The notes under the pieces were generated by a model. That model was given only the letters and a program-made list of their open reading frames with translations. It searched no databases and was not told the DNA's origin. A stretch of 45,795 nt of DNA from Thermoflexales bacterium. Lineage in GTDB: Bacteria; Chloroflexota; Anaerolineae; J036; Brachytrichaceae. Both the position numbers and the translations under genes were made by a program. Where the stretch lies: assembly GCA_019694215.1 (NCBI GenBank), contig JAIBCK010000016.1, forward strand, positions 1 through 45,795, given 5' to 3'. The stretch's first letter is position 1; each line of letters opens with the position of its first letter. Shown here piece by piece: positions 14,607 through 41,664 of this stretch.

Positions 14607-14607
14607 G

Positions 14608-16302: not shown

Positions 16303-16330
16303 ACGCCCCTCCGGGGTGACGAAACAACAA

Positions 16331-16370: not shown

Positions 16371-16402
16371 ATTTCTACGGTTGCAGGCGTTGCCTCCCGG
16401 GC

Positions 16403-17461
16403 CTACTTCGGCTGGGCGGCGATCGCCTCTTCGAACTTGGTCGTGATGCCCTTCTTGGCTTGACCGGCCTTGACGAAGTCATAGTCGATCAGGTTCACCG
16501 AGGAGAGCTTGACCGAGCGATCCGAGACCTTGGCATCCGGGTTGGTCGGAAGCTGATAGGCCTTGGCCGTCGGCCCGATCTCCTGGGCCTCGGCGGTCAG
16601 CGCCCAATCGATCCACATCTTGGCGGCAGCCTCTTCCGGCGCGCCCTTGACCAGGCCCATCGCGCCGATCTCGTAGCCGGTGCCTTCCTTGGCGAAGCTC
16701 ACGACCACATCCTTGAAACCGGCATCGACAGCGGCGACGCAGTCATGCGAGAAGACCACGCCCACCACGGCCTCGGCCCGGCCGACGGCCTGCGCGGGCG
16801 CGGCGCCGCTCTTGGTGTACTGCGAGACCTGCGGGTGCAGCTTGGTCAGGAACTCGAAGGCCTTGTCCTCACCACCGCGCAAAACGACCTGCGTCCACAC
16901 CATCGTGTAGGAGGTGCCGGACGTGGCCGGGTGCGCGACCGAGAACTTGCCCTTCAGCTTGGGATTCAGCAGGTCGTCCCACGAGGTCGGCGGCTGCAGG
17001 CCCAGCTTGTCCAGCTCGACCTTGTTCGAGCAGAAGCCCAGCGCCCCGACATACACCCCGGTCCAGAAGCCATCCGGATCCTTGGCCTTGTCCGGGATCT
17101 TGGCCGCGTTCGGCGACTTGTAGGCGGCCAGCGTGCCATCGCCCTTGGCCTGGACGAAGCCATCGGCCGGGCCGCCCCACCACACCGAGTACTCGGGGTT
17201 GCTGGCGGTGGCCTTGAGCTTGGTGGCCGCCTCGCCCGAGCTCAGCCGGGTGAAGGTGGTCTTGATGCCCGTCTTGGCCTCGAAGGCCTTGGTCTGGGCG
17301 ACGCACCAATCCTCGGTGACGGTGCACAGCACGGTCAGCTTGGTGGGCTTGGCGGGCGCGCTGGTGGCGGCCGGGGCCGCGGCACCGGGCCCGCACGCGG
17401 TGAGCGCCAGGGCCGCACCTGCGGCGAGGGCGATCAACCGGGAAGACGTCTGGGTGTTCAC
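16403..17461 (-). CDS. ABC substrate-binding lipoprotein, AfuA/FbpA-like
   Basis: 352 residues from GTG 17461, preceded by AAGGAGAT at ideal distance. The signal peptide ends in a lipobox (LALTAC, Cys23), followed by an Ala/Thr/Pro linker and then the binding fold: LTVLCTVTEDW, EAKTGIKTTFTRLSSGEAATKLKA, NPEYSVWWGG. This opening and the late NLIDYDFVKAG segment fit COG1840-type proteins, which bind ferric iron or small oxyanion-like ligands. The lipoprotein delivers ligand to the fused permease encoded downstream. Iron is the common substrate, but phosphonates or others are possible. Confidence 0.88.
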   Translation of the reverse strand: MNTQTSSRLIALAAGAALALTACGPGAAAPAATSAPAKPTKLTVLCTVTEDWCVAQTKAFEAKTGIKTTFTRLSSGEAATKLKATASNPEYSVWWGGPADGFVQAKGDGTLAAYKSPNAAKIPDKAKDPDGFWTGVYVGALGFCSNKVELDKLGLQPPTSWDDLLNPKLKGKFSVAHPATSGTSYTMVWTQVVLRGGEDKAFEFLTKLHPQVSQYTKSGAAPAQAVGRAEAVVGVVFSHDCVAAVDAGFKDVVVSFAKEGTGYEIGAMGLVKGAPEEAAAKMWIDWALTAEAQEIGPTAKAYQLPTNPDAKVSDRSVKLSSVNLIDYDFVKAGQAKKGITTKFEEAIAAQPK

Positions 17462-17496
17462 AGGGGAATCTCCTTCAATGAATGTGCGAATCGAAT

Positions 17497-17540
17497 GGGC
17501 GTATGGCGCGCAACTATTCGGCGTTGCGCCACAGACGCCC
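17497..17540 (-). promoter_or_regulatory. Structured leader before the iron-type ABC operon
   Basis: An outer pair GGGCGT/ACGCCC (17497-17502 with 17535-17540) encloses an inner 7-bp inverted repeat GCGCAAC/GTTGCGC (17508-17514 with 17523-17529). It lies 36-79 bases before the GTG start. It could be an operator or a leader hairpin; it resembles no riboswitch I know. A TAAGAT -10-like box lies just upstream of it. Confidence 0.35.
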
Positions 17541-17593
17541 ATCTTACTCTTACTTGAAGGATTTTCCCAGCCGCGCCCGCCGGACGCCCCGGG

Positions 17594-21202: not shown

Positions 21203-22324
21203 TTACCCGCGCAGGAACGTCTTGAGCTGGGCTTCGTCGACTTCGATGCCCAGACCCGGCCGAGTGGGCACGCCGATCGTGCCATCGCGGATGTCGAGCG
21301 GCTCGCGCAGCAGCCGGTCGCGGAAGGGATTCTCCACCGTATCCAGCTCGACCATCGGCGCCTCGGTGCTGCGCGCCCACGAGGCATCCGGGAGCAGCGA
21401 CACGAGGTGCACCGTCGCGGCGATCACCGGGCCACCCGCCCAGCAATGCGGCATGGTCGGGATCCCCCACAGGCGCGCCAGCTCGGCGACGAAGAGGGCC
21501 TCACCGATCCCGCCGCACAGACAGACATCGGGTTGGACGATGTCCATCGCGCGCCGGGCAATCGCTTCGCGGAATTGGCCGCGCGAGGTCAGCCCCTCGC
21601 ACGCGGCGATGGCGATGTCGAGATGCTCGGCCAGACGCTCGTAGCCGGCGTATTCGGGCACGCTCTGCGGGAGGGGCTCCTCGAACCAGTCGAAATCGAG
21701 TGCTTCAAGCGCGCGCCCCATCTTGATCGCGCCGGGCAACGTGTAGGCGCCATTGCCATCCGCCATCAGCGCGATGTCGGGGCCAACCGCCTCGCGCACC
21801 GCCCGCGCCACGGCGATGTCCCGCGCGAGCGGCTGTCCGCCCAGGCGCATCTTGAGCGCGCGGAAGCCCTGGCCGACCAGGTCTCGCGCCTCACGCGGAT
21901 ACTGCACGACCGCGTCCTCGCCCTCGATGTAGTTCATCGCCGAGGCATACGCCTTGACGCGCTCGCACAGCCGGCCGCCATACAGCTCCGCGACAGGCAG
22001 GCCAAGCGCCTTGCCCCGCAGATCGTCCAACGCAATGGAGACGCCACCAAGCGCCATCCCGTTGCCGAAGTTGGGTCCCCACAGCGCGCGCCAGAGCGGG
22101 CGGATGCGGACGGGGTCGGCGCCGATCAGGCGCGGCGCATACGCCTCCTCGATCAGCGTCCGCACCCCGCTGAAGATGACGGTCTCGCCCCAGCCCACCT
22201 CGCCGCTGTCTGTTTCGAGCTTGATCAGCAGCGTGTCACGCGAGCGGTAGTAATACGTCGACGGGCCGGTCGCCCGCATCAGCGGGTGGGTCAGCGCAAA
22301 GGTCTTGACGGCGGTGATCTTCAT
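21203..22324 (-). CDS. Mandelate racemase/muconate lactonizing enzyme family protein
   Basis: 373 residues with the enolase-superfamily layout. The N-terminal capping domain spans about 1-125. Barrel residues include Lys158-x-Arg160 (KMR), metal ligands Asp189 (ADGNG), Glu215 (FEEP) and Glu243 (ACEGL), and an Asp266 (QPD)/His293 (MPHCW) pair expected to act as the general base. This pattern is the mandelate-racemase subgroup, which contains mainly acid-sugar dehydratases and some racemases. A dehydratase making a 2-keto-3-deoxy acid would fit the surrounding dehydrogenases. The exact substrate is unknown. It lies between the transporter ATPase and the S9 peptidase. Confidence 0.92.
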   Translation of the reverse strand: MKITAVKTFALTHPLMRATGPSTYYYRSRDTLLIKLETDSGEVGWGETVIFSGVRTLIEEAYAPRLIGADPVRIRPLWRALWGPNFGNGMALGGVSIALDDLRGKALGLPVAELYGGRLCERVKAYASAMNYIEGEDAVVQYPREARDLVGQGFRALKMRLGGQPLARDIAVARAVREAVGPDIALMADGNGAYTLPGAIKMGRALEALDFDWFEEPLPQSVPEYAGYERLAEHLDIAIAACEGLTSRGQFREAIARRAMDIVQPDVCLCGGIGEALFVAELARLWGIPTMPHCWAGGPVIAATVHLVSLLPDASWARSTEAPMVELDTVENPFRDRLLREPLDIRDGTIGVPTRPGLGIEVDEAQLKTFLRG

Positions 22325-22330
22325 GCACCC

Positions 22331-23431
22331 TCACACGGCCAGCCGCAGCCCGCTCTCGCGATCAAAGACATGCAGCTTGGCGCGGTTGATGCGGACGCCA
22401 ACCCGATCCCCGAGGAAGACCGCGGCATCCGGCTCGACGCGGGCGGTGATGCTGTGCCGGCCACGCACGACCTCGACAAAGGTGTCCGAGCCAAGCGGTT
22501 CGAGCAGCGCGATGTCGCCGACCAGCGTGTCGGGCCCGGCATCCTGCGCGGGCACCAGGTGCGCGTCCTCGGCACGCACGCCCAGGCTGACCGCGCCGGC
22601 CACACCTTCGTTCGTTGTGCCAGCGCTGCCCGGCCAGGCCAGACGCAGGTCCTCACCCTCGAAGACGGCCTCGCCGCCCTCTGCGCTCACGCGCAGCTCA
22701 CCCTCCAGAATGCTCATGCGCGGCTTGCCGATGAACGTTCCGACATACAGGTGGTTGGGCCGGCGGTAGACGTCGTTGGCCTTGCCATACTGCATCACCA
22801 CGCCGTCCTTCATCACCGCGATGTAATCCGAGAGGATCATGGCCTCCTCCTGATCATGCGTGACGAAGATCGAGGTCGCCTTGAGCTGCTGGTGCAGCTT
22901 CTTGATCTCGATGCGCATGCGCGTGCGCAGCGCGGCGTCGAGATTCGACAGCGGCTCGTCAAACAGAAAGACCTTGGGCTCCTTGACCATGGCGCGGGCC
23001 AGCGCGACGCGCTGCTGCTGCCCACCGGACAATTGCGAGATGCGGCGCTGGAGGAGTTTATCCACTTCGAGCGCCTTTGCGACGCGCTGGACGCGCTGCT
23101 CGATCTCGGCTTTGGGCGTCTTCTTCAGCTTGAGCGAGAAGGCGATGTTGCCATACACGTCCATGTGCGGGTAGAGCGCATAGTTCTGAAAGACCATCGC
23201 CATCCCGCGCTCATGCGGCGCCCAGTCAGTGATCTCCTGGCCGTCCAGCAGGATCTTGCCGCGCGAGACGCGCTCGAGGCCGGCCAGCATGTTCAACGTC
23301 GTCGTCTTGCCGCAGCCGGAGGGGCCAAGCAGGGTGACGAAGGCGTGATCGGGGATGTCGAGCGTGACATCCTTGACCGCCTGGACCGAACCAAAGGATT
23401 TGGCAACGCCCTGCAACGAGACTCGGCTCAT
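22331..23431 (-). CDS. Carbohydrate ABC transporter ATPase (MalK/UgpC-like)
   Basis: 366 residues. Motifs are Walker A GPSGCGKTTT (about 34), Q-loop VFQNYALYPHMDV, signature LSGGQQQRVALARA, Walker B VFLFDEPLSNLD and switch VTHDQEEAM. The C-terminal regulatory domain (about 240-366) with GVRAEDAHLV and GDRVGVRINRAKLHVFD is the OB-fold extension found in sugar importers. It follows the second permease gene by 18 bases, so this importer has its own ATPase rather than sharing one encoded elsewhere. Confidence 0.94.
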   Translation of the reverse strand: MSRVSLQGVAKSFGSVQAVKDVTLDIPDHAFVTLLGPSGCGKTTTLNMLAGLERVSRGKILLDGQEITDWAPHERGMAMVFQNYALYPHMDVYGNIAFSLKLKKTPKAEIEQRVQRVAKALEVDKLLQRRISQLSGGQQQRVALARAMVKEPKVFLFDEPLSNLDAALRTRMRIEIKKLHQQLKATSIFVTHDQEEAMILSDYIAVMKDGVVMQYGKANDVYRRPNHLYVGTFIGKPRMSILEGELRVSAEGGEAVFEGEDLRLAWPGSAGTTNEGVAGAVSLGVRAEDAHLVPAQDAGPDTLVGDIALLEPLGSDTFVEVVRGRHSITARVEPDAAVFLGDRVGVRINRAKLHVFDRESGLRLAV

Positions 23432-23449: not shown

Positions 23450-24286
23450 TCAGTACTTCACACCCTCGACCAGCCCACGCACGATGTAGCGGTTGAGGAT
23501 GATGACCAGCGCAACGACGGGCAGGATGGCGAGCATCCCCGTGGCGGCGACCAGTGATGTGTCGGAGTGAAAGGTGCTGCTGACCAGTCCCGACAGTTTG
23601 ACAGTGATCGGGGTGACCTCGCGCGTGGAGAGGATCAACCCGAACAGAAATTCATTCCACGCCCCGATGAAGGCGAAGACGGCGGTGGCGACCACGCCCG
23701 GCGCTGCCGCCGGAATCATGACGCGGAAGAGCGCGCCCAGCCGCGTGCATCCATCCATGCGGGCCGCCGACTCCAGCGCCACCGGGATCTGGTCGAAGAA
23801 GTTCTTCAGCATCCAGATCACGTAGGGCAGGAGAAAGGTCGAGTAGACGATGATGAGCGCGGCATACGTGTCGCGCAGATTCAGCCAGCGCATGATCAGA
23901 AACATCGGGATGATCAGCACCATCGACGGGATCATGCGCGAGATCACGCTCGCCCCGAGAAAGAGGTTGCGGCGCGGGAACTTCAGGCGCGCCAGCGCAT
24001 ACGCGGCCAGCGAGCCAAAGACCAGACAGCACGCCATGGTCGCCACCGAGGTGATCACGCTGTTCTTGAGCGCGGCGGCCACATCGGCCTGCGAGAGCAT
24101 CTCGGTGTACCAGCGCAGGCTGAAGTCATTCAGGCTGAGGTGCGGCGGGACCGAGACGTAGTTGATCTCGGGCTGCACGCTCATCGTGGCGATCCAGATC
24201 ACCGGCGCGAGTGTCCAGATGACAAAGAAGGCCACCAACCCGTAGAGCAGGGCGGGCCGCACCCAGGTGGAGAGCATTCGTCGCAT
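23450..24286 (-). CDS. Carbohydrate ABC transporter permease (MalG/UgpE-like)
   Basis: 278 residues with six transmembrane segments. The periplasmic loop carries PEINYVSVPPHLSLNDFSLRWY, usual for MalG-type proteins. The EAA loop is ALESAARMDGCTRLGALFRVMIPAAAPG (around 175-202), followed by FAFIGAWNEFLFG, another hallmark. It forms the pore with the MalF-like protein, whose stop is one base upstream of this ATG. Confidence 0.94.
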   Translation of the reverse strand: MRRMLSTWVRPALLYGLVAFFVIWTLAPVIWIATMSVQPEINYVSVPPHLSLNDFSLRWYTEMLSQADVAAALKNSVITSVATMACCLVFGSLAAYALARLKFPRRNLFLGASVISRMIPSMVLIIPMFLIMRWLNLRDTYAALIIVYSTFLLPYVIWMLKNFFDQIPVALESAARMDGCTRLGALFRVMIPAAAPGVVATAVFAFIGAWNEFLFGLILSTREVTPITVKLSGLVSSTFHSDTSLVAATGMLAILPVVALVIILNRYIVRGLVEGVKY

Positions 24287-24287
24287 G

Positions 24288-25217
24288 TCAGGCCTGCCCC
24301 TTCGGCGTGCGCCGCACGGTGAGGCTGAGCGAAATCCCGCTCAGCACCATGATCAAGCCTGCCAACGCCAGCGCCAGCGCCGACGCCGAGCCCAGGCTCA
24401 GCCGCTCAAAGGCGTTGATGAAGGTCAGGTAATTCAGCACCACCGTCCCCTGCCCCGGCCCGCCGCGCGTCAGCGTGAAGATCAGGTCAAAGGCCTGCAA
24501 CGAGGCAATGATCTGCAGGACGACGACGAAGATCACCGTGGGCCGCAGGTGCGGGAAGGTGACATACCAGAAACGGTGAAGGATGCTGGCGCCATCCATC
24601 TTGGCCGCCCGGTAGAGCGACTCCGGAATACCCTGCATCGCGGCCAGCAGGATCAGCGAGGCGAAGGGCAGCGCCTTCCATGCGCTGGCGATGGCGGCCA
24701 CGCTCAGCGCAACGCTCGGATCATCAAACCAGACCACATACTTGTCGATCAGCCCGAGCGCGCGCAGCACGGCGTTGATCAACCCGTAGCTCTGGTGGAA
24801 CATGTAGCGCCACATCACCCCGCTCACCACGGGTGCCACCGCCCACGGCAGCAGGATGAACACCCGCACCCAGCGGCGACCCTTGAAGGGCTCATTGAGC
24901 ACGATGGACAACACCAGCGCCAGCACCGTCGTGAAGACGACGTTGAGCGCGGCGAAGAACAGCGTGCGCGGGATGGCGGCGTTGACCTGGTTGTCCGACA
25001 GCAGGCCACCGAAGTTGTTCAGGCCGATGAACTTCCAGTCCGGCGAGATCGTCAGCTCGATCCGGTTCAGGCTCATCAGGATCGAGTAGCCAATCGGCAG
25101 CGCCAGGAAGACCAGCATCAACAGCGCGGTGGGCGCGATGAGCAGATACCCAAAGCGGCCCTCGTCCATGCGGTTGAAACGCTGCCAGAAGCTCGCGCGC
25201 GGGCGGGTGTCGGTCAT
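24288..25217 (-). CDS. Carbohydrate ABC transporter permease (MalF/UgpA-like)
   Basis: 309 residues from ATG 25217; the longer frame up to 25358 runs over the hairpin and the binding-protein gene and is not real. Six transmembrane segments are visible, starting YLLIAPTALLMLVFLALPIGYSI. The EAA loop is IPESLYRAAKMDGASILHRFWYVTFPHLRP, and the LTRGGPGQGT segment is typical of MalF-type proteins. It is separated from the binding-protein gene by a 15-bp hairpin. Confidence 0.94.
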   Translation of the reverse strand: MTDTRPRASFWQRFNRMDEGRFGYLLIAPTALLMLVFLALPIGYSILMSLNRIELTISPDWKFIGLNNFGGLLSDNQVNAAIPRTLFFAALNVVFTTVLALVLSIVLNEPFKGRRWVRVFILLPWAVAPVVSGVMWRYMFHQSYGLINAVLRALGLIDKYVVWFDDPSVALSVAAIASAWKALPFASLILLAAMQGIPESLYRAAKMDGASILHRFWYVTFPHLRPTVIFVVVLQIIASLQAFDLIFTLTRGGPGQGTVVLNYLTFINAFERLSLGSASALALALAGLIMVLSGISLSLTVRRTPKGQA

Positions 25218-25233
25218 GGCGATGACGCTCCGG

Positions 25234-25273
25234 CGATGGCCGGCCTGCCTGTCGTCGAGCAGGCCGGCCATCG
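25234..25273 (-). other. Perfect 15-bp hairpin between binding protein and MalF-like gene
   Basis: Arms CGATGGCCGGCCTGC (25234-25248) and its exact complement (25259-25273) flank a 10-base loop. It begins 18 bases after the stop of the binding-protein gene and ends 16 bases before the permease ATG. With no T-run it is not a standard terminator. The position equals that of the malE-malF repeat hairpin of enteric bacteria, which protects the upstream mRNA. Confidence 0.85.
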
Positions 25274-25291
25274 CGTCACGAGGAAGGATGC

Positions 25292-26653
25292 TTAGCCGCC
25301 TACCTTGGCCCAGTAGGCATCGATGGCCTTTTGCGCGTCGGCCTGGATCTTTTCGCACGCCTGCTTCGGGGTCCCATTGCCCTTGAGCAGCGTGTTCATG
25401 TGATCGTTGAACGCCGTGCCGACGTCGAAGTAGAACGGCGAGCCATAGCGCGCCGCCGGATACTTGACCTGCTCGGACACCGCAGCGAACTGCGGCGACG
25501 AGGACTTGACCTCGGCGTCATTGAAGGTGGCCGCCAGCGCGGGCGGGCGCCCCCACTTCATGGCCACCAGCTTCTGCACCTCGGGCGAGACGGTGAACTC
25601 GAGCCACGCCATGGCCAGCTCCTTGTTCTTGGAGAAGCGGTTCATGGAGTAGCCCTCGAAACCGTTGGACGAGGCGCTGCGCAGCTTGAGCCCCGGGATG
25701 ATCCCCGTGCGGCCCTTGCCGACAATCTGCGACTGGGTGGCATCCTGCGCCAGTGTGTAGTGGTTGGGGAAGGCGAAGTAGTGGCCGATCTTGCCGCCAC
25801 GGAAGACCTTGCCCTGCTCGATCGAGCTGTTGATCGTCAACCCGGCCGGATCGATCCACTTGTCCTTGACCACGCCGTTGTAGAACGCCTCCATGGCCTG
25901 CAGGCCCTCGGGCGTGTCCACGAAGATCTTCTTCTGATCATCACTCAACAGCGAGCCACCCGTCGAGTTGTAGATCGAGATGAAGGTGAAGAAGCTCGAG
26001 TTCGGATCGCCCAACGTGAACAACGTCCCGAAGTTGCCATCCTTGGTCAGCTTCTTGCTGTAGTCGGCAAACTGCGTCCAGTTCTCGGGCGGCTTGTTGG
26101 GATCCAGCCCGGCCTTTTCATACAGCTCGCTGTTCCACATGAAGATGGCCATGTTCGAGTCGAACGGGATGCCATACAGCTTGCCCAGGAAGGTCAGCGC
26201 CTTGACCGGCGTGGGATTGAGCTGGCTGAGCAGCGCCGGCTTGAAGGCGCTCAGGTCCTCGAACAGCCCCCGCCCGAACTTGGCGGTGAAGGTCTCCCAG
26301 CTGTACATCACGTCCTGGGAGCCGTCCTGGCTGGCCAGGAACACGGCGTACTTGGCATCCGCGTCACCACCGCCGATGGACGTGTAGGTGACCTTGGCCC
26401 CGGTCTTCTCCTGGAAGAGCGGGATCCACAGATCGCGCACGTTGGTGTCGTGGTGGTTGCCGGCAAAGACGGTCAGTTCCTTGCCCGCAAACGGCTTGGC
26501 GATGACCGCAGGCGCGCTGGTGGCAGCCGGCTTTGCCGCCGTCGGTGCGACGGTCGCCGCGGGTGTGCAGGCCGCGCTGACGGCAGCCAGCGTGGCGCCG
26601 GACCCGGCCAATCGGAGAAACTTGCGTCGCGAAAGATTTTTCTGAACTTTCAT
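25292..26653 (-). CDS. Carbohydrate ABC substrate-binding lipoprotein with Tat signal
   Basis: 453 residues. The N-terminus has a twin-arginine motif (SRRKFLRLAG, residues about 8-17) and a lipobox ending at Cys29 (AVSAAC), so it is exported folded by Tat and then lipidated. After an Ala/Thr/Pro linker comes a family-1 solute-binding fold: ELTVFAGNHHDTNVRDLWI, EKTGAKVTYTSIGGGDADAKY, GIPFDSNMAIFMWN and a late MNRFSKNKELAMAWLEF. This family mostly binds sugars or glycosides. It precedes both permease genes. tatA and lgt elsewhere in the window would serve its export. Confidence 0.92.
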   Translation of the reverse strand: MKVQKNLSRRKFLRLAGSGATLAAVSAACTPAATVAPTAAKPAATSAPAVIAKPFAGKELTVFAGNHHDTNVRDLWIPLFQEKTGAKVTYTSIGGGDADAKYAVFLASQDGSQDVMYSWETFTAKFGRGLFEDLSAFKPALLSQLNPTPVKALTFLGKLYGIPFDSNMAIFMWNSELYEKAGLDPNKPPENWTQFADYSKKLTKDGNFGTLFTLGDPNSSFFTFISIYNSTGGSLLSDDQKKIFVDTPEGLQAMEAFYNGVVKDKWIDPAGLTINSSIEQGKVFRGGKIGHYFAFPNHYTLAQDATQSQIVGKGRTGIIPGLKLRSASSNGFEGYSMNRFSKNKELAMAWLEFTVSPEVQKLVAMKWGRPPALAATFNDAEVKSSSPQFAAVSEQVKYPAARYGSPFYFDVGTAFNDHMNTLLKGNGTPKQACEKIQADAQKAIDAYWAKVGG

Positions 26654-26694
26654 TGGATTGTCCCCTCTTCTTGCGTAACGCTGTATGACATTAA

Positions 26695-26734
26695 CCGGCC
26701 GCCTGGCCGGAGATGGTTGCGGCCCATGGCCGCA
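26695..26734 (-). other. Two short GC-rich hairpins between the Gfo/Idh and binding-protein genes
   Basis: TGCGGCC/GGCCGCA (26718-26734, 3-base loop) and CCGGCC/GGCCGG (26695-26710, 4-base loop) stand one after the other in the 113-base gap. Neither is followed by a T-run on the minus strand. They may attenuate read-through from the GntR transcript into the importer genes or protect the upstream mRNA end. Confidence 0.45.
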
Positions 26735-26766
26735 CTGCAGGAAGCCTGTCTCAGCCGTTCACCTCC

Positions 26767-27786
26767 TCAGCCATAGCGGCTGCGCCAGTCCACTTCGACC
26801 TGCTGCGGACGTCCCGCGGCAGCCGAAGCTAGCATCTTGACCATGATCGTTGTTGCAATGCGCCCCTCACGGGCGCCGGCCTCGCTGGGCCGGCCCGCGC
26901 GGGCGCAATCGGAAAAGTGGCGCAACAGGGCAACGTCGCCTTCGAGGTCGGCGCGCTCGCGGGCATCCAGATCCCCCACCCCGAGCGTCGCCGCCTCAAA
27001 CCCCCACAGGGTGGCCTGGCGGTAGCGCTCGTGCAGGCAGATGCCCTGCCCCAGCCCGAAGACCTGGCAGAAGAACGTCGAGGTGTACGGGTTGCGGCCC
27101 GGGTCGCCGTGCACGAGGCTGGCCACAGCGCCATTTGCAAAACGAATGACCCCCACCAGTGCGTCCAGACCGGCCGGCCCGCCGTGGATGGCATTGCTCC
27201 CCGCGGCATACACCTCGACGGGATCGGCACCGGCCAGATAGCACAGCAGGTCCGCCGTGTGGCAGCCCGCCCCGATGATCGTGCCGCCGCCAATCCCCGG
27301 CTGCAGCGACCAGGCCGTGTCCGGCACGCGGTCGTTCATCATCTGCCCGGTTAGCACGATCGGCCGCGGGACCATGGCGCGCGCACGCCGCACCAGCGGC
27401 ATGAAGCGCATCTTGAGCCCGGTGCAGACGGTCACCCCGGCCCGCCGCGTGGCCTCCTCGATCTCCCAGCATTCATCGATGGTCAGCGCCAGCGGCTTCT
27501 CGATCAGGATGTGCTTGCCGCGTCGGGCGGCTTCGACGGCCAGGCTGGTATGCGTGTCATGCCAGGTGCAGATCAGGACGGCGTCGACGCTGGGGTCCGC
27601 CAGCACCCGGCCCGGATCGTCGCAGGCGTAGTCGCCGCCATAGCTGTCCAGAAAGCCGCGCGCCGCGTCCGGCCGCAGGTCGGCATACGCCGTCAGGCGC
27701 AGCCCGGGCACCTCCGCGGCGCCATCACAATACACGCGCGCCCGCAGCCCGCAGCCGATCACGCCGAGACGCAGCGCCTCACTCAC
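26767..27786 (-). CDS. Gfo/Idh/MocA family oxidoreductase
   Basis: 339 residues. The N-terminal Rossmann fold starts LGVIGCGLRARVY (about 7-19) and carries the family EKP motif (HILIEKPLAL, near 96) whose Lys lies at the active site. The C-terminal domain has the GGGTIIGAGCHTADLL segment with the conserved His used in catalysis. Such enzymes oxidise or reduce sugar, inositol and amino-sugar hydroxyls with NAD(P). The ATG overlaps the stop of the zinc-type dehydrogenase gene by four bases, so the two are translated together. Confidence 0.93.
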   Translation of the reverse strand: MSEALRLGVIGCGLRARVYCDGAAEVPGLRLTAYADLRPDAARGFLDSYGGDYACDDPGRVLADPSVDAVLICTWHDTHTSLAVEAARRGKHILIEKPLALTIDECWEIEEATRRAGVTVCTGLKMRFMPLVRRARAMVPRPIVLTGQMMNDRVPDTAWSLQPGIGGGTIIGAGCHTADLLCYLAGADPVEVYAAGSNAIHGGPAGLDALVGVIRFANGAVASLVHGDPGRNPYTSTFFCQVFGLGQGICLHERYRQATLWGFEAATLGVGDLDARERADLEGDVALLRHFSDCARAGRPSEAGAREGRIATTIMVKMLASAAAGRPQQVEVDWRSRYG

Positions 27787-28913
27787 CGGTTGTCTCCGTA
27801 GGTGAAGAGCACCGTCGGCGGACGCGCCGGCGTGTGCAGCAGGTCATACGCACGCGGTGCCTCGACCATCGGGATGCGCGTCGAGGCCAGCCCGCTCACG
27901 TTGACGGTCCCGCGCGAGAGCATGCGCAGAAAGGCGACCTGGTTGCGGTTCTCGGTCCAGCGCGCATAACCGATGGGGTAATCGACCACGCCCTCCTCGT
28001 AGACCGGGTCATAGCGGCCCTGGCCATAGGCGATCGAGGGCAGGAAGGTCACTTCACGCGAGTACATCCGCCCGCGTTCGAACTCCATCCCGAACAGGCC
28101 GACGCCAACGACCGTGCCCTTGTGGCGGCACAGGTCAAACGAGCGGTTGATCGGCACGCTCGACGGCGTCACCACGCACAGCACCACGGCATCCGCGCCA
28201 AAGCCCTCGGTCATCTCCAGACAGGCGGCGATGGCGTCGTCGTGCTCGGGGTCCATCGCCCGGTCGGCGCCGTTGGCCAGCGCCTCCTGCACGCGGCGCG
28301 GATCGACATCCAGGCCCAGCACATTCATCCCGGCCTGCTTCGCGATTTGCGTGCCGAGCTGCCCGAGCAAGCCCAGCCCGTAGATCACCACCGTCTCGCC
28401 GAACTGGCAGCCGGTGCGGCGCAACCCAACGGTCGCAATACAGCCAAGCGTGACAAACGCAGCGTGGTCGAGCGCGACGTTGTCGGGCACCTTTGCGGTC
28501 AGCGTGCGCGGCACGGCCACGCGCTCGGCATGAATCGCGCACTGGTTGCCGGAGCACGCCACCCGGTCGCCGGGCTTGAGGTCGGTCACCTCGGGCGCAA
28601 CGGCCAGGACACGCCCGGACAGGCTGTAGCCCACCGAGGCGGTCCCGGGCAGCTGCGGGCGCGGATCCGGCCCGCCCCAGCGCACGCCCCGCCCGCGCAG
28701 CTGCGGCGGGGCCGGGTAGCCCAGCGACGGCTTGCGCGGATAGGTGTCCTCACCCAGCGTCTCGGGATTGGCCGTTGCGTGCAGAATGTGCATCTCCGTG
28801 CCGCTGCTGATGGCCGAATAGGCGGTCTCGACCAGCACCTCACCCGGTCGCAGGGTCGGCTCGGGAACGTCGATCACTTCCGCGCGGCCAGCCCGCGCAA
28901 TGACACGCTTCAT
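27783..28913 (-). CDS. Medium-chain (zinc-type) dehydrogenase
   Basis: 376 residues of the MDR superfamily: TAYSAISSGTEM near residue 31, GYSLSGRVLAV and LKPGDRVAC in the catalytic domain, and a Rossmann fold with VVIYGLGLLGQLGTQIAKQAG (about 173-193) followed by LDVDPRR, which suggests NAD. Cys and His appear at SGNQCAIHAE, but the usual four-Cys structural zinc cluster is not seen. SAISSGTE resembles the dehydrogenase half of bi-domain (ADH plus Gfo/Idh) oxidoreductases; here the Gfo/Idh half is the next gene. It overlaps the GntR gene upstream by four bases. Confidence 0.9.
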   Translation of the reverse strand: MKRVIARAGRAEVIDVPEPTLRPGEVLVETAYSAISSGTEMHILHATANPETLGEDTYPRKPSLGYPAPPQLRGRGVRWGGPDPRPQLPGTASVGYSLSGRVLAVAPEVTDLKPGDRVACSGNQCAIHAERVAVPRTLTAKVPDNVALDHAAFVTLGCIATVGLRRTGCQFGETVVIYGLGLLGQLGTQIAKQAGMNVLGLDVDPRRVQEALANGADRAMDPEHDDAIAACLEMTEGFGADAVVLCVVTPSSVPINRSFDLCRHKGTVVGVGLFGMEFERGRMYSREVTFLPSIAYGQGRYDPVYEEGVVDYPIGYARWTENRNQVAFLRMLSRGTVNVSGLASTRIPMVEAPRAYDLLHTPARPPTVLFTYGDNR

Positions 28914-29626
28914 GCGGCCTCCGATGAATCGCCCGTCTGCAGGCGCGCCAGGACGCGCTGGCGGGCCAGCTTGATGTGGTTGGCCATCTCCGTCTTGAGC
29001 GCCGCCGCATCGCGCGCGATGGCGGCCCGCAGGATGGCCTGATGCTCGATCTCCGTGTAACGCAGGTAGTCGTCGGCGGTGAAGCGGCTGAGAATGCGCG
29101 CCATGTGCAGCGGCCCGCCGATGGTGCTGTAGATCTCGTCCATGCGCCGGTTTCCGGCCAGCGCGATCAGTCCGCTGTGAAAGTGCTGGTCGAGGATGAT
29201 GTACTTCTCGAACGCCGATCCGAAGTCGGGCCCCTCGAGCAACGCATGCATCTCATCCAGGATCCCGCGCAGCCGGGCGATGTCGGCGTCGGTGATCGCG
29301 GCGACGATGGCGTCGGCGGCATACAGCTCGAAGGCCAGCCGCACGCCGTAGCCGTCCATCAGCGCGGTCACGTCGATGTCGGTGACAAAGGTGCCCCGCC
29401 GCGGCGCGATCGTGACCAGCCCCTCCGCCTCGAGCCGGTGCAGCGCCTCCTTGATCGGCGTCCGACTCACGCCGAGCTGGGTCGACAGCTCATCCAGGTC
29501 GAGGCGCTGCCCAGGCGGATAGACGTGGCCCAGGATGGCGCGGCGCAGGTGGTCATAAACGTCATCCCGGATGTTGGGATGGACGATCGGGGCGACGGTG
29601 CCGGTGTGGGTGCGCATGACGGTCAC
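28910..29626 (-). CDS. GntR-family transcriptional regulator with FCD domain
   Basis: 238 residues from GTG 29626, or 235 from ATG 29617; neither has a clear Shine-Dalgarno. The N-terminal winged helix has DVYDHLRRAILGHVYPPGQRLDLDELSTQLGVSRTPIKEALHRLEAEGLV (about 21-71), typical of the FadR subfamily. The C-terminal all-helical FCD domain (about 90-225) keeps metal-site candidates in DQHFH, NRRMDE and EIEHQAI. Such regulators respond to organic or sugar acids. It is first in an operon with the two dehydrogenases and most likely controls itself through the 12-bp inverted repeat upstream, and perhaps the whole island. Confidence 0.93.
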   Translation of the reverse strand: MTVMRTHTGTVAPIVHPNIRDDVYDHLRRAILGHVYPPGQRLDLDELSTQLGVSRTPIKEALHRLEAEGLVTIAPRRGTFVTDIDVTALMDGYGVRLAFELYAADAIVAAITDADIARLRGILDEMHALLEGPDFGSAFEKYIILDQHFHSGLIALAGNRRMDEIYSTIGGPLHMARILSRFTADDYLRYTEIEHQAILRAAIARDAAALKTEMANHIKLARQRVLARLQTGDSSEAA

Positions 29627-29629
29627 GGC

Positions 29630-29659
29630 TTCTGAAATCTGAAATATCAGATTTCAGAA
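29630..29659. promoter_or_regulatory. Probable GntR operator: perfect 12-bp inverted repeat
   Basis: TTCTGAAATCTG at 29630-29641 is repeated in perfect inverse at 29648-29659 around a 6-base AT spacer. It sits between the -10 box and the start codon of the regulator gene, overlapping the predicted transcription start. The sequence is much richer in AT than its surroundings. Autorepression is the natural reading. Confidence 0.75.
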
Positions 29660-29686
29660 TTCTAGTCTGGGCAGGCATTTTGTCGA
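29659..29686 (-). promoter_or_regulatory. Promoter of the GntR-dehydrogenase operon
   Basis: On the minus strand TCGACA (29686-29681) and TAGAAT (29664-29659) are separated by 16 bases; each differs from the sigma-70 consensus by one base. Transcription should start near 29652, inside the inverted repeat, leaving a leader of about 26 nt to the GTG. Confidence 0.7.
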
Positions 29687-29726
29687 GGGGGGCAATTTCC
29701 CGCGAGGGTACGGGCGTCCCGGCCGG

Positions 29727-30953
29727 TCAGCGGGCCGGCGACCGCGCCTGAAGCGCCGCTTCCAGCGCCGGGACGATCACCGACCAGTCGTATTGCGCGC
29801 GGACGAAGGCGTGCCCGCGCTCCCCCAGCCCGCTGCGGGCGGCGGGATCGGCCAGCAGGTCGATGACCGCCTGCGCAAAGTCCGGCGCGCGGTCAGCCAG
29901 GCGCATCTCGCCGCCATCCTGCACGTCAAAGCCCTCCGCGCCCAGGCGCGTCGAGACAATCGCGCGCCGCATGGCCATCGCTTCGAGCAGCTTGAAGCGC
30001 GTGCCGCCGCCCACCCGCAGCGGGGCCAGATACACCGCCGCCCGCGCGATCGCCTCGCGGATGTCGTCGACGGCGCCGGTGATGGTGATGCGCGGGTCGG
30101 CGCGCAGCCCATCGAGACGCGGGCTGGGCTTCTGCCCGACGATCCACCAGCGCGCCTCCGGGCAGGCCGCGCGCACGGCCGGCCAGACCTCGGCGGCAAA
30201 CCACAGCATGGCGTCGATGTTGGGGCGGAAATCCATCTTCCCGGTGAAGACCAGGTCGCTGCCGCCCGGCGGAATGGGATGGCCGTCATACGCCGCCGTA
30301 TCGATGCCATTGGCGATGACGAGCGGGGCGAGCGCGCGGTCCAACGCACGCAGCGAATCACCGTCCTGCGGCGAGACGACCAGGGTCAGATCGGCGGCGC
30401 GCGCGATGCGGGCCTCGAACGCGCGCAGCCGGCGGGTCTGCACCCAGGAGTAGGCCGCAGCATGCCAGCGTCGCGGGTTGCGCCGGTCGGTCTCCGACGC
30501 GCGCTGCTGAAGCAGATACTCGCAGTTGTGGTCGTCAAAGACCAGGCGCGTGCCGGTTTCGGCCAGCCGGTCGCGCAGGGCCAGCCCGTAGCGGGCAAGC
30601 TCGATGCCCTCCACCTGCACGGCGTCGAAGCGCGCCTCGCCCAGCCAGGCCTGAATCTGTTCGAGGAAGGCGGGCGCCCACAGCCGCCACGCCATGTCCG
30701 GCAGCGTCGAAAAGGCCAACGTTTTGAGCCGATCTGTCATCCGGCGCGCCGGGACTGGCAGGGTGGCCACCCGCGCGCAGGTCTCCCGCAGCAGGGGGTG
30801 CACGGCCTCGCCGGGCTCGGCAAAGGACAGCAGCCATACCTCGTGGCGGCGGGCCAGCCCGGAGATCAGCCCCCAGTTCCGCAGCGCGGTGCCCTGGCGG
30901 GGCGGATACGGCAGCTGTGGCGTGAGGAAGAGCAGGCGCAGGCGCTCAGACAT
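29727..30953 (-). CDS. Glycosyltransferase (GT4-like), sugar transferase
   Basis: 408 residues from ATG 30953; the frame continues to 31064 only as antisense-like Arg/Pro sequence. LLFLTPQLPYPPRQGTALRNWGL is the usual opening of GT-B enzymes that work on exopolysaccharides. The C-terminal domain has LVIANGIDT, LVFTGKMDFRPNIDAMLWF, APLRVGGGTRFKLLEAMAM with the E-x7-E donor-site pattern, and IVSTRLGAEGFDV. It probably transfers a sugar from a nucleotide donor during surface glycan synthesis. It overlaps the next glycosyltransferase gene by eight bases. Confidence 0.9.
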   Translation of the reverse strand: MSERLRLLFLTPQLPYPPRQGTALRNWGLISGLARRHEVWLLSFAEPGEAVHPLLRETCARVATLPVPARRMTDRLKTLAFSTLPDMAWRLWAPAFLEQIQAWLGEARFDAVQVEGIELARYGLALRDRLAETGTRLVFDDHNCEYLLQQRASETDRRNPRRWHAAAYSWVQTRRLRAFEARIARAADLTLVVSPQDGDSLRALDRALAPLVIANGIDTAAYDGHPIPPGGSDLVFTGKMDFRPNIDAMLWFAAEVWPAVRAACPEARWWIVGQKPSPRLDGLRADPRITITGAVDDIREAIARAAVYLAPLRVGGGTRFKLLEAMAMRRAIVSTRLGAEGFDVQDGGEMRLADRAPDFAQAVIDLLADPAARSGLGERGHAFVRAQYDWSVIVPALEAALQARSPAR

Positions 30954-36648: not shown

Positions 36649-37343
36649 ACGAGCGTCGCGTCCCCGCGCCCGCCCCGATCAGCAGCCAGCAACCGGGCTG
36701 CCTGGTCGCCGCGGGCATCATCGGGGCCGGGCTGATCGTCGCCGCGCTGATCGTGAGCGGGGCGCTCCGCAGCGTGGGCGGGGCGATCGAGCAGAGCAAC
36801 CCGGCCCGCGCGGCCGCCTCCGCCTTTGCGCCGTCGACGGCGACGGTGATCGTGCGTCCGCCCGTCATCAACCAGGTCAAGGCCCTCTCCGACCTGACCT
36901 CCGCGTCGACGACGATGTCGACCATCGCCGAAGCCCAGCAGGCGCGCGTGGGCAACGTGATCTACGAACGGCTGGTGCTGCTGGCCTGCGGGCGGGTCAA
37001 GGCCGGCATCGATTTGAGCAAGCTGCGCGAAGAAGATATCTCGGTCAGCACCGATGGCCGCAGCGTCAGCCTGCGCCTGCCCCGCGCCGAGTTGCTGGAT
37101 GTCTACCTCATCGATGACAGCACCCAGCCCTGCTACACCCGCGTGTATGACCGGACCAACCTCATCCTGCTGCCGAGTTCCAAGGACCTGGAGGCGCAGG
37201 CCCGCGAACAGGCCCTGAAGGCGATTCGGGAGACCGCGCTGCAGTCCGGGGTGCTGAGCGAGGCGGATCGCAACGCCCGCAGCGTGATCGAGCGCGTCCT
37301 GCGCGCCAGTGGCTTCGACACGGTCCTGTTCCTCGAGCGTTAG
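36645..37343 (+). CDS. Membrane-anchored DUF4230-type protein
   Basis: 232 residues. One hydrophobic helix (about 20-44) near the N-terminus is followed by a Ser/Ala/Pro linker and an extracytoplasmic domain with VNQVKALSDLTSAS, LVLLACGRVKAGIDLSKL, VSLRLPRAELLDVYL and a C-terminal helix with EQALKAIRETALQSG. This pattern agrees with DUF4230, a family without known function. Start overlaps the glutaredoxin-like stop, so the two are coupled, perhaps in redox or stress handling at the envelope. Confidence 0.75.
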   Translation: MNERRVPAPAPISSQQPGCLVAAGIIGAGLIVAALIVSGALRSVGGAIEQSNPARAAASAFAPSTATVIVRPPVINQVKALSDLTSASTTMSTIAEAQQARVGNVIYERLVLLACGRVKAGIDLSKLREEDISVSTDGRSVSLRLPRAELLDVYLIDDSTQPCYTRVYDRTNLILLPSSKDLEAQAREQALKAIRETALQSGVLSEADRNARSVIERVLRASGFDTVLFLER

Positions 37344-37397
37344 GCACCCCGGACGCGGCGGACGTCGGCGCGCCCCCGCGGCGGTCCCCGGTTCACC

Positions 37398-37403
37398 TAT
37401 AAT
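37398..37403 (+). promoter_or_regulatory. TATAAT -10 box of the amylase gene
   Basis: TATAAT lies 64 bases before the ATG at 37468, giving a leader of about 58 nt. Unlike the leaderless genes here, the amylase has a ribosome-binding site (GTGGAGGA just upstream). Confidence 0.6.
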
Positions 37404-37467
37404 GTCCGGGCTAAACCAGTTCAGGGCGTCCCGCGCCCGGCGGCCGGCGCCCCTTGTGGAGGACCCG

Positions 37468-40400
37468 ATGAAGCATCCGCAATTTGTCCGCGCGCTGTGC
37501 GCGGTCGTACTTGCCGCATCCACGTTTGCCAGCGCTGCCAGCCGCGCCCTGCCTGCTGCGGCGAGCCCCGCCCTGCTCCCCGGCGCGCCCCTTGCAGCGA
37601 CCAGCATAACGCTCGCGGGCGACCTTCAGAGCGAGCTGGGCTGTCCCGGCGACTGGCAGCCGGCCTGCGCGACCACGCACCTGACCTACAACGCCGGCTT
37701 CGATGTGTGGACCGGGAGCTTCGCCGTGCCGACCGGGCTCTTTCATTACAAACTGGCGCTCAACGACAGCTGGACGGAGGCCTACGGCCAGAATGGCGGC
37801 GCGGGCGACATCACGTTGAACATCGCGCCTACCACAACGGTCAAGTTCTACTTCGACGAGAAGACGCACTGGCCGGCTGACAACAAGAACCAGCGCATCG
37901 TCGTCGCGGCGGGCGATTTCCAGAGCGAGGCGGGCTGCCCCGGCGACTGGCAGCCGGGCTGTCTGCGTACCTGGCTGCAGGACAAGGACGGCGACGGCAC
38001 CTATTTGGCGTCGACGACCGCGCTCCCGGCCGGCAGCTATCAGTTCAAGGTCGCGCTCGGCGAAGGCTGGACCGAGAACTACGGGGCCGGCGGCGTGGCG
38101 GGCGGGGCCAACATCCCCTTCACCGTCCCCTACGCCAACGCCCCGGTCACCTTCAAATTCGTCTCGGCCACCAACACCCCCTCCGTGCTGGTCGGTCACA
38201 ACCCGGATGGCAACGTCGAGTATGACGGGCTCGGGCATGACTCGCAGGACGGGCTGTATCGCGTGCCCTTCGGCGCGGTGACCATTGGCACAACGGTGAC
38301 CGTGCGCTTCCGCACCTTCGCCAACGACGTCACCGGCGTGACCGCGCGCGTGTGGAACACGGCCGTCAATGCCGAGAGCATGATCCCGCTCACGCGCGTC
38401 GCGAGCAACGAGGATTGCCGCGTCGCCGCGCTCGCGACGGACCGCTGCGATTACTGGCAGATGCAGCTGCATCCCACCCAGCGCGGCGTGCTGTATTACC
38501 GCTTCATCATCGTCGATGGCGCATCGACCGCCTACTACGCCGATGACGGCATGTTTGACGGGGGCTGGGGGACGGCGACGCCGGACATGCTCGACCGCAG
38601 CTACCCCATCGTCGTGTATGAACCCGACTTCGCCCCCATCGGCTGGCTGCAAAACGGGGTGATGTATCAGATCTTCCCCGACCGCTTCCGCAACGGCAGC
38701 GTGGCCAACGATCCGCACAACGGTGATGCGCGATACGATGACCCGGTCGTGAAGTGGCCGTGGGGGACCCTGCCCGAGGGCTATTGCCGCAACTACACCA
38801 ACGCGCTGTCGATCTGCCCCTGGCGCACCACGCCCATCCCGGTCTGGGGCACCAGCCTGCCCGAGACGCCGCGCGGCCGCGATTACCAAGGCGGCGACCT
38901 GGCCGGCGTGCGCGCCAAACTTGATTACCTGCAGGACCTCGGCGTCACGGTGATCTATTTCAACCCGATCTTCGATTCCGGCTCCAACCACGGCTACGAC
39001 ACGCAGAACTACCTCGCCATAGATCCGTATTTCGGCAGCAAGGCCGACTGGGATGCCCTGGTCGCGGATGCCGACGCGCGCGGGATCAAGATCATCCTCG
39101 ACGGCGTCTTCAACCACGTCTCATCCGACAGCAAGTATTTTGACCGTTATGCTCATTACCCCGAGGTCGGCGCGTGCGAGAGCGTGGCCTCGCCATATCG
39201 CTCGTGGTTCACCTTCCACGATGTGGCCGCCGGGGCCGGCAGCTGCGCGGGCAGCGCCGGACCGAACAGCGCCACGTACGACGGCTGGTTTGGCTTTGAC
39301 AGCATCCCGGTCATGAACAAGAACAACGCTGCCGTGCGCGACCTGGTGTATGCCGGGGCGGGCAACGTGGCCGCCTACTGGCTGAACGAGGGCGCCGCGG
39401 GCTGGCGCCTCGATGTCATGAGCGACGGCTCCTTCCCCGCCGATTTCTGGCAGGGCTTTCGGCAAACGGTCAAAGCGACCAACCAGAACGCGCCAATCAT
39501 CGGCGAGATGTGGAAGCGCGACGAGATGCTCCCCAAGGTGCAAGGCGACCAGGCCGACACCGGGATGAACTACCGCTTCCGCAACGCCATCCTGGGCTTC
39601 TACGGGACCGTGGACGGCAAGGGCTTCCCCGATGATGGCGCGACCAACCAGCCGCCCAGCACGTTTGCAAAGAAGATGAACTCCGTACGTGAGGATTATC
39701 CGGACGCGGCGTATTACACGCTGATGAACCTGATGGACAGCCACGACACGATGCGCATCCTGTGGAACCTCACGCCCGCGGCGAGCAACACCCGCACCGA
39801 CAAGGAGAACCCCGCCAACCTGGCGGCCGGCACCGAGCTGCTCAAGCTGGCCGTCCTCACCCAGATGGGCGTGCCGGGCGTGCCGACGATCTACTATGGC
39901 GATGAGATCGGCATGACCGGCGAGGATGACCCCGACGACCGGCGCGCCTTTCCGTGGTACGACGCCTACACCGTCTACCTGCCCATCGTGTTCCGCTCGG
40001 GCACGGGCAATGCTTCGCCCGATTCCGCCAGCGCGGCGGCCGTCTTCGGCGCCGGCGGCAACGGCGCGCTGCGTGAGTATTACAAGGCGCTGATCGGCGC
40101 GCGCCGCGCCCACCCCGCCTTCAGCCAGGGCGCGCTGAGCTTCCCGCTCACCGATGACGCCAACCGCACGCTCGTCATGATGGCGCGCACGATCACCGAC
40201 ACCGGTCTGGTGGCCATCAACCGCGACGCCGTGACGCACACCCTGACCTTCACCGCCACCGGGCGCATCCCGGATGGCCTGGTCGTAAGCAATGCGCTGG
40301 ATTCCGCACAACGTTTCACTGCAACCGGCGGCGTCATGTCCCTCACCCTCGGCCCGCGCGCCGGCCTGATGCTGGTCGCCGTCGCCGGCCAGGACCAGAG

Positions 40401-41664
40401 CGGGCCGACACCGGTTGCCGACCTCATGGCCGCGCCGCTCAACGGGGGCGTGGCGCTCAACGCGTCGAGCATCGCCGACGCGGTCGGCTATGCCTTCTAT
40501 CGCAGCCCGGTCATGGGCGGCGGGTATCTGCGCATCGGCGTCTCGGCGACCCCGGCCTACACCGACAGCGTGGCCAACGGCAAGCGCTACTACTACGTCA
40601 TGCGCGGGATCGACGCGGCTGGCAACGAGGGCGCGCCCTCCAACGAGGCCAGCGCCGTGCCCGCCTATCCGATCGTGTGGGCCAACCTGCAATGGCCCAA
40701 GACGCTGACGACGACGGTTGGCGTCACCCCGACGCAAAACATCTACGGCCAGGTGTATGTGCCCGGCCTGACCAACGCCGGGGGCCCGAGCACCGGCATC
40801 CTCGCCCAGCTCGGATTTGGCCCGACTGGCAGCGCGCCGGCGACGTGGACGACCTGGAAGGCGATGGCCTACAACGGGCCGGCCGGAAGCAACTACGAAT
40901 ACGTGACAACGCTGCGGCCCGAGAATGCCGGCGTGTATGACCTGCTCACGCGCTACTCGACCGACCTCGGCCTGACCTGGACCTACGGCGATCAGAACGG
41001 GATGGGCGTCGCGACGCCTGGCGTGATGACCGTCCTGGCCAACGCAGACAATACACCACCCGCCGCGCCGACGCTCACGCTGGACGGCGTGGGGGCCTCG
41101 CAGGTGCGCCTGAGCTGGACGTCGGTCGCGGATGCCGCCGAGTACCGGCTGTATCGACGCACGGACGCCAACCCGTATGGCTCGCCCTTGCTCGTGCTGA
41201 CCACGACCAGCGCCATCGACACCGCGGTCACGACGGGCACCCCCTACAGCTACGTTGTGCGGGCCGTCGACGCGGCGCTCAACCTGTCCGCCGACAGCAA
41301 CGAGATCGCGGCCATCCCGACGCCGCAGGTCGTCTCAGTCACCTTCCAGGTGACGGTTCCAGCGGGCACACCGGTGACGGGCACGGTCTACATTGTCGGC
41401 AACCAGCCGCAGATCTGCGGCTGGTGCAACCCGCACACCACGGCGCTGACCAAGACCGGGCCAACCACCTGGTCGACGACGCTGACATTCGCCGAGGGCA
41501 GCACGGTGGAATACAAGTACACGTTGGGCGACTGGCTGTATGTGCAGAAATCGGACACCTGCGCCGAAGTCGGAAACAACGTCGTCAATGTCGGCGCGGG
41601 GCCGACCCAGGTCGCCAACGACACGGTGCTGAACTGGCGCAACGTCGCGCCCTGCGGCAACTGA
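37468..41664 (+). CDS. Large secreted multidomain alpha-amylase/neopullulanase (GH13)
   Basis: 1398 residues from ATG 37468. Signal peptide about 1-32. Two X25-like repeats (about 46-138 and 142-242) both contain DxQSExGCPGDWQP. A CBM34-like domain (about 248-380) precedes a GH13 barrel from about 393: DGVFNHVS, nucleophile Asp649 in GWRLDV, acid/base Glu680 in IIGEMW, and Asp760 in DSHDTMR, whose SHD form fits the neopullulanase/cyclomaltodextrinase group. Then come FN3 (about 978-1065), a beta-rich linker domain (about 1066-1190), FN3 (about 1191-1288) and CBM20 (about 1290-1398). It should hydrolyse starch, pullulan or related glucans outside the cell. About 35 residues with YLPIVFR interrupt the barrel end near 832-868. 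Confidence 0.94.
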   Translation: MKHPQFVRALCAVVLAASTFASAASRALPAAASPALLPGAPLAATSITLAGDLQSELGCPGDWQPACATTHLTYNAGFDVWTGSFAVPTGLFHYKLALNDSWTEAYGQNGGAGDITLNIAPTTTVKFYFDEKTHWPADNKNQRIVVAAGDFQSEAGCPGDWQPGCLRTWLQDKDGDGTYLASTTALPAGSYQFKVALGEGWTENYGAGGVAGGANIPFTVPYANAPVTFKFVSATNTPSVLVGHNPDGNVEYDGLGHDSQDGLYRVPFGAVTIGTTVTVRFRTFANDVTGVTARVWNTAVNAESMIPLTRVASNEDCRVAALATDRCDYWQMQLHPTQRGVLYYRFIIVDGASTAYYADDGMFDGGWGTATPDMLDRSYPIVVYEPDFAPIGWLQNGVMYQIFPDRFRNGSVANDPHNGDARYDDPVVKWPWGTLPEGYCRNYTNALSICPWRTTPIPVWGTSLPETPRGRDYQGGDLAGVRAKLDYLQDLGVTVIYFNPIFDSGSNHGYDTQNYLAIDPYFGSKADWDALVADADARGIKIILDGVFNHVSSDSKYFDRYAHYPEVGACESVASPYRSWFTFHDVAAGAGSCAGSAGPNSATYDGWFGFDSIPVMNKNNAAVRDLVYAGAGNVAAYWLNEGAAGWRLDVMSDGSFPADFWQGFRQTVKATNQNAPIIGEMWKRDEMLPKVQGDQADTGMNYRFRNAILGFYGTVDGKGFPDDGATNQPPSTFAKKMNSVREDYPDAAYYTLMNLMDSHDTMRILWNLTPAASNTRTDKENPANLAAGTELLKLAVLTQMGVPGVPTIYYGDEIGMTGEDDPDDRRAFPWYDAYTVYLPIVFRSGTGNASPDSASAAAVFGAGGNGALREYYKALIGARRAHPAFSQGALSFPLTDDANRTLVMMARTITDTGLVAINRDAVTHTLTFTATGRIPDGLVVSNALDSAQRFTATGGVMSLTLGPRAGLMLVAVAGQDQSGPTPVADLMAAPLNGGVALNASSIADAVGYAFYRSPVMGGGYLRIGVSATPAYTDSVANGKRYYYVMRGIDAAGNEGAPSNEASAVPAYPIVWANLQWPKTLTTTVGVTPTQNIYGQVYVPGLTNAGGPSTGILAQLGFGPTGSAPATWTTWKAMAYNGPAGSNYEYVTTLRPENAGVYDLLTRYSTDLGLTWTYGDQNGMGVATPGVMTVLANADNTPPAAPTLTLDGVGASQVRLSWTSVADAAEYRLYRRTDANPYGSPLLVLTTTSAIDTAVTTGTPYSYVVRAVDAALNLSADSNEIAAIPTPQVVSVTFQVTVPAGTPVTGTVYIVGNQPQICGWCNPHTTALTKTGPTTWSTTLTFAEGSTVEYKYTLGDWLYVQKSDTCAEVGNNVVNVGAGPTQVANDTVLNWRNVAPCGN

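Follow-up and report, generated by a model that had tools for sequence, protein, structure and literature searches.

In the FadR subfamily of GntR regulators, the operator consensus is TKGT/ACMA, with exceptions that include NanR and BioR, and in 13 groups of the subfamily extra weaker half-sites lie 7-12 nt from the centre, according to the accessible parts of Suvorova et al. 2015 (PMC4494728). Three dimers of Escherichia coli NanR bind a (GGTATA)3 operator cooperatively (excerpts of PMC8012715), and UxaR of Thermotoga maritima, a GntR regulator of pectin and uronate use, binds a conserved 17-nt motif at loci that carry ABC transporter and sugar-acid genes (accessible text of PMC3750489).

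The site described here precedes gntR, a gene for a GntR regulator with an FCD domain, in the window (the whole 45.8-kb stretch of DNA that was analysed). Like the FadR-subfamily operators it is a short AT-rich palindrome, predicted here to be read by a dimer of an FCD GntR protein, but its word is TCTGA-N4-TCAGA, free of GT/AC boxes (compared with the accessible account in PMC4494728). With no GT/AC pair in the core, TCTGATATTTCAGA, the TKGT...ACMA pattern of FadR-type operators is absent, which supports the suggestion, made earlier from the letters of this DNA, that the word departs from that consensus and may be a new motif; neither CTGA nor TCAG occurs as a word in the accessible main text of PMC4494728. 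Since that paper already describes additional half-sites close to GntR operators, the adjoining boxes found at this site are known in kind, and the site belongs with those operators that have a further half-site 7-12 nt from the centre. As in NanR, whose three dimers on three boxes illustrate a way in which such arrays can function, a GntR regulator with an FCD-type domain stands beside an array of several closely spaced boxes; the NanR boxes, however, are direct repeats of another word, GGTATA, whereas the window has a forward pair followed by a reverse pair, set in a 7-bp register, so that word and orientation both differ (excerpts of PMC8012715). UxaR (TM0439) is the nearest solved relative of the window regulator by protein sequence, a likeness that leaves the motif letters aside, since the accessible text of PMC3750489 gives the UxaR motif in a figure rather than as letters. 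Agrobacterium Atu1419, of the VanR group, is likewise an FCD regulator with palindromes overlapping or lying between promoter boxes, and differs in its word, ATGTATACAT, and in forming a tetramer able to loop between distant sites (accessible parts of PMC7797058).

One appearance of the window word in print concerns CodY, a regulator of Firmicutes. Within the reach of a plain-letter literature search, that is, outside IUPAC spellings, figures and most subscription journals, the word was nowhere tied to a GntR operator; judged by title, most of the matching papers contain primers and deal with other subjects, and the occurrences read in context were a primer in PMC13050008, a primer in PMC4981712 and one line of a CodY-box table in PMC5966866, whose CodY box is somewhat similar to the window word (TCTGAAAATT-like words).

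Promoter, palindrome and half-sites before gntR

Read along the minus strand, the elements are TCGACA, 16 bases, TAGAAT, the repeat TTCTGAAATCTGATATTTCAGATTTCAGAA, three bases and the GTG start codon, and the final T of the -10 element is also the first base of the repeat (Table 1). The sequence-only reading had placed this promoter immediately before a perfect repeat of 12-bp arms around six bases; the promoter and its position next to the palindrome were confirmed, and the palindrome lies where it had been put, but its arms are of 13 bp around 4 bases. Called by consensus only, the promoter pair matches at 10 of 12 positions and is the sole promoter-like pair in 29500-29800 (shuffle mean 0.0), the -35 element being TTGACA in the ortholog from the same genus and in most of the scored relatives. 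With spacers of up to 8 bases allowed, the palindrome is the only repeat in the window with arms of 13; 40 first-order Markov simulations gave a mean of 0.0 repeats with arms of at least 13 and 0.1 with arms of at least 12. GC content is 30% over 29628-29664 as compared to 68% across the window.

Table 1. Positions of the promoter, half-sites and operon genes in the window, and of a second word in other loci
Feature	Position	Strand	Basis or remarks
-35 element TCGACA	29681..29686	-	Promoter scan
-10 element TAGAAT	29659..29664	-	16 bp after -35; promoter scan
Putative operator, 30-bp palindrome TTCTGAAATCTGAAATATCAGATTTCAGAA, 13-bp arms, 4-base centre	29630..29659		Sequence; core kept in relatives
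Outer half-site 1, TCTGAAA	29652..29658	-	Abuts core; 7/7 match
Core dyad TCTGATA TTTCAGA, half-sites 2 and 3	29638..29651	-	1 mismatch to relatives' consensus TCTGAAATTTCAGA
Outer half-site 4, TTTCAGA	29631..29637	-	Abuts core; 7/7 match
gntR, FCD-type GntR regulator, 238 aa from GTG	28910..29626	-	Pfam GntR 9.7e-21, FCD 2.2e-19
Zinc-binding alcohol dehydrogenase-like protein	27783..28913	-	Orthologs at 68% in L052, L053, L054
Gfo/Idh/MocA oxidoreductase	26767..27786	-	Orthologs at 66-68% in L052, L053, L054
ABC sugar-type solute-binding protein	25292..26653	-	Orthologs at 81-82% in L052, L054
Two ABC permease genes, 24288-25358 (longest reading frame) and 23450-24286	23450..25358	-	Orthologs in L052
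ABC ATPase	22331..23431	-	Ortholog at 71% in L052
Enolase-superfamily (mandelate racemase type) acid-sugar dehydratase-like protein	21203..22324	-	Ortholog at 74% in L052
Exact TGTAACATGTTACA before FCD regulators	L072:5968, L073:5992, L077:5933, L080:5925, L081:5923, L091:3424		0-based starts

Read in a 7-bp register, the window site consists of the boxes TCTGAAA TCTGATA TTTCAGA TTTCAGA. This build recurs in part among the relatives: over 21 sites (L085, a near copy of L083, being left out of the count), boxes next to the core agree with the half-site at 4.14 of 7 positions on average, as compared to 1.94 (sd 0.18) in shuffled flanks, none of 2000 of which scored as high. At gaps of 1 to 30 bases from the core the mean is 2.57 at most, and boxes of the opposite orientation directly beside the core (gap 0) score 2.83. 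In 14 of the 21 sites one or both adjoining boxes match at 6 or 7 of 7 positions, and in three of these (the window, L063 and L071) both do.

A repeat of this kind could instead act as RNA, the 5' leader forming a hairpin that hides the gntR start or attenuates transcription. When the strand is folded as RNA, 76 nt do give a hairpin of 13 bp that ends three bases before the GTG (-27.4 kcal/mol, z -6.2). Given the position of the -10 element, however, transcription would begin near 29652, within the first arm, so that the full hairpin would not form. What the relatives keep, moreover, is the word and not the extended pairing (in 11 of 21 sites one neighbouring box matches at 6 or 7 of 7 positions while its partner reaches 5 at most), the gap between the core and the longest gntR frame varies (5 bases in L057, 11 in the window and 50 in L055), and a copy elsewhere in the same genome, on contig C71, heads a different gene. 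After this folding and a terminator scan, which found no terminator-like site in 29500-29800, we rated both the terminator and the hairpin readings low, and we regard an action as RNA as extremely improbable.

Two further repeats were noted in the window. The other repeat with arms of 12 is a perfect 24-bp palindrome, ACCAGCCGCAGATCTGCGGCTGGT, at 41402-41425, inside a long reading frame (37309-41664) that by its look encodes an amylase-type secreted protein; at 9786-9811 lies an inverted repeat with 10-bp arms, TTTGTCTCGCCATCCAGCGAGACAAA, of terminator-like shape.

Conservation of the site and its link to one regulator clade

The regulator gene is the first of its operon and its product the presumed repressor. 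It combines a GntR winged helix with an FCD domain (PF00392 at 73.6 bits and PF07729 at 70.6 bits, each above its cut-off), and among proteins of known structure its best sequence match is PDB 3sxy, the T. maritima UxaR. His 150, 195 and 217 are invariant across 11 sequences; we take these to be the metal ligands of a metal-binding FCD domain, whose conserved histidines the regulator thus carries. Translation could also start at an ATG at 29617. Because gntR and the zinc dehydrogenase gene overlap by 4 bases, the two are probably co-transcribed, and the last gene of the set common to the window and L052 is the dehydratase-like one. Beyond this operon, at 13524-17542 on the minus strand, the translations suggest another ABC importer cluster made up of a binding protein, a long double permease and an ATPase.

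Absence of the repeat upstream of orthologous operons had been named beforehand as a result that would speak against an operator. The proposed operator came through this check: the core TCTGAAATTTCAGA precedes gntR in all three orthologous operons with visible synteny, with 1 mismatch in L052, none in L053 and 2 in L054, beside regulators 51-54% identical to that of the window. L052, which comes from another genome of the family, retains the whole eight-gene series, gntR through dehydratase, in the window's order at 54-81% identity; the fetched stretches cover the first three operon genes in L053 and the first four in L054. The closest relative, from the same genus, supplies a fourth close ortholog, a regulator 59% identical to that of the window; it has a decayed site with 4 mismatches and keeps the promoter TTGACA-16-TAGAAT, its contig ending before the operon becomes visible.

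As had been stated from the sequence, the importer genes are not preceded by another full copy. Once registers that overlap the repeat itself are set aside, the sole other match in the window at up to 3 mismatches is 26641-26654, with 3 mismatches; it falls on the start codon of the binding-protein gene and was rejected as a second operator. No promoter-like pair was found in 26600-26850, nor any match at up to 3 mismatches before the binding-protein gene in L052 and L054, both of the orthologous operons fetched there.

A search of the organism's own genome (3.4 Mb) with up to 3 mismatches allowed gave 19 places, as compared to 4 for a reversed-pattern control; only two of the 19 have no more than 1 mismatch, namely the window site and C71:23302. 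The genome scan for word pairs that had been proposed as a check thus yielded one further close copy, and it directly precedes a peptide-type ABC operon encoding a paralog of the window regulator at 49% identity. The promoter there, TTGACA-16-TACAAT, has the core 7 bp past its -10 element, like the window. The genes of this operon (L049:3571-10816) were named from their translations as peptide-type ABC importer genes, a zinc dehydrogenase-like, a TPR-like, the paralogous GntR and a Gfo/Idh-like gene. The genome has five FCD genes, and the 3.4-kb loci of the three that are neither gntR nor its paralog contain no match under 5 mismatches.

To place the motif among regulators, a tree was built of 100 FCD proteins, comprising 78 of the 80 relatives' loci (L101 and L139, with 78 and 4 bases upstream, were excluded), 21 further loci and the window, with genomes met in more than one relative search entered once. 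Rows were called motif bearers if they had the core at up to 2 mismatches; 19 were labelled by scanning about 420 bp upstream, and the paralog (L049) was added manually, since its site stands 5.5 kb upstream of the gene, where the operon begins. All 20 bearers fall inside a single group of 35 rows (SH-aLRT 96), in which the motif at that threshold is absent from the other 15. The label requires 6 changes on the tree as compared to 18.6 in shuffles, with 0 of 500 shuffles as low, on a core word derived partly from sequences that were scored afterwards and on a tree of the quick kind that came with long-branch warnings. Record titles name the source of 14 bearers and place 12 of them in Chloroflexota, one under the name Thermoflexus, which we take to belong to that phylum.

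At the level of whole genomes, exact 14-mers occur at four places in 28 family genomes, all four beside a regulator of the clade; when one mismatch is allowed, such a regulator can be linked to 7 of the 16 places. Across 298 genomes of the class, the 16-mer ATCTGAAATTTCAGAT at up to 1 mismatch occurs at 30 places in 27 genomes; 27 of these places were examined as loci, 7 being beside a clade regulator and 20 having none within about 1.5 kb on either side. The three places outside the 27 are G001:C106 and G000:C71, both tied to a clade regulator by other results, and G070:C83. Both exact 16-mer places in the class genomes are beside a clade regulator. From these counts an exact word is a strong sign of the regulator, whereas a one-mismatch word is not. 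In the class scan the reversed pattern, used as a control, was absent from every genome row, so the unlinked places are not obviously due to chance. The 20 copies without a clade GntR are L154, L155, L157, L158, L161-L165 and L170-L180, and some unlinked copies in the class genomes lie in runs of related words.

One could therefore envision a different transcription factor that merely co-occurs with the operon, given these many one-mismatch matches away from any clade regulator and an association of regulator and site that rests on neighbourhood. Against this, the site follows one protein group across sugar-type ABC loci, the peptide-type ABC locus on C71 and the divergent-permease loci L058 and L059, and does so beyond Chloroflexota, in Paenibacillus mangrovi (L076, exact core; a long row placed on the tree among the neighbouring group) and in the HGW-Firmicutes-19 bin (L068, 1 mismatch), the two named bearers from outside that phylum. 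A separate factor thus seems to us very improbable.

Position at promoters and the proposed repression

Site and promoter were compared at 22 sites, made up of the 20 bearers and two decayed ones. All 22 have, on one strand and within 75 bp, a -35/-10 pair matching at 10 or more of 12 positions, and of 300 draws with shuffled flanks no more than 8.3% scored as well as the chosen pair. The pair is on the gntR strand at 17 sites and on the opposite strand at 5, where the strand was picked after viewing both and L083 and L085 are near copies; at two of the five opposite-strand sites, L074 and L085 (the places L058 and L059), there is a divergent permease gene. In 18 of the 22 sites the beginning of the core is 1-10 bp beyond a sigma-70-like -10 element; it is downstream of the -10 in 21, while in L057 the core overlaps the -10 rather than coming after it. 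Since the core thus lies over or just past the expected start of transcription, its placement suits repression by blocking initiation. As in autorepressors, the site lies on or next to the promoter of gntR itself, with boxes called by consensus.

FCD regulators can also act as activators, and it could be that the palindrome is the operator of this regulator, which however activates, or controls itself alone. Such a reading would differ from repression of the operon in sign and in reach. The core's position downstream of the chosen -10 in all sites except L057 is suited to blocking rather than activation, and the overlap of gntR with the next gene, with their probable co-transcription, argues against self-only control. 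We consider activation or self-only control unlikely.

We conclude that the palindrome is very probably the operator of the FCD-type GntR regulator and that its occupation would block gntR together with the downstream operon, a view drawn from the sequence comparisons. Counting against it are the decayed site of the same-genus relative, the 15 rows of the tree group that lack the motif and the many one-mismatch copies in the class away from any clade regulator. A regulator dimer would read the core dyad TCTGA(A/T)ATTTCAGA and cover the start of transcription immediately downstream of the -10 element, thereby blocking initiation at gntR itself (autorepression) and expression of the dehydrogenase, ABC importer and dehydratase genes behind it. 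A ligand derived from the imported compound may release the repressor, and the outer TCTGAAA half-sites may add contacts, probably through a second dimer or cooperative binding. The mechanism is an ordinary one, an autoregulated FCD GntR switch of a well-known kind, and the finding leaves the picture of how such repressors work unchanged; what is new is the motif word. As an operator word that can be searched for, it allows target operons of these regulators, mostly from uncultured Chloroflexota, to be listed from sequence.

A second word in the neighbouring group

In the neighbouring group of the tree (Cohnella, Paenibacillus and Bryobacterales), a different 14-mer, TGTAACATGTTACA, stands in the same 7+7 frame. 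Of 16 loci scanned for it, 6 carry it exactly before FCD regulators (Table 1), and a further copy with 1-2 mismatches lies about 0.7-1.5 kb downstream in five of the six (not L091). It is likely the operator of that group, and a literature search for TGTAACATGTTACA as plain letters found no paper.

A bolder reading, which we rate as possible but less likely than not, is that the mostly Chloroflexota clade of FCD GntR regulators uses a half-site, TCTGAAA, outside the GT/AC pattern, in phased arrays of up to four boxes at a 7-bp pitch (forward, forward, reverse, reverse), on which at least two dimers would bind cooperatively. The neighbouring group, keeping the 7+7 frame with TGTAACATGTTACA, might then offer a natural series for a specificity code, and the TCTGAAA and TGTAACA half-sites within one protein group provide a contrast for studying the choice of DNA by FCD regulators. 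Both words are held by Paenibacillus mangrovi, each beside its own regulator (L076 and L081).
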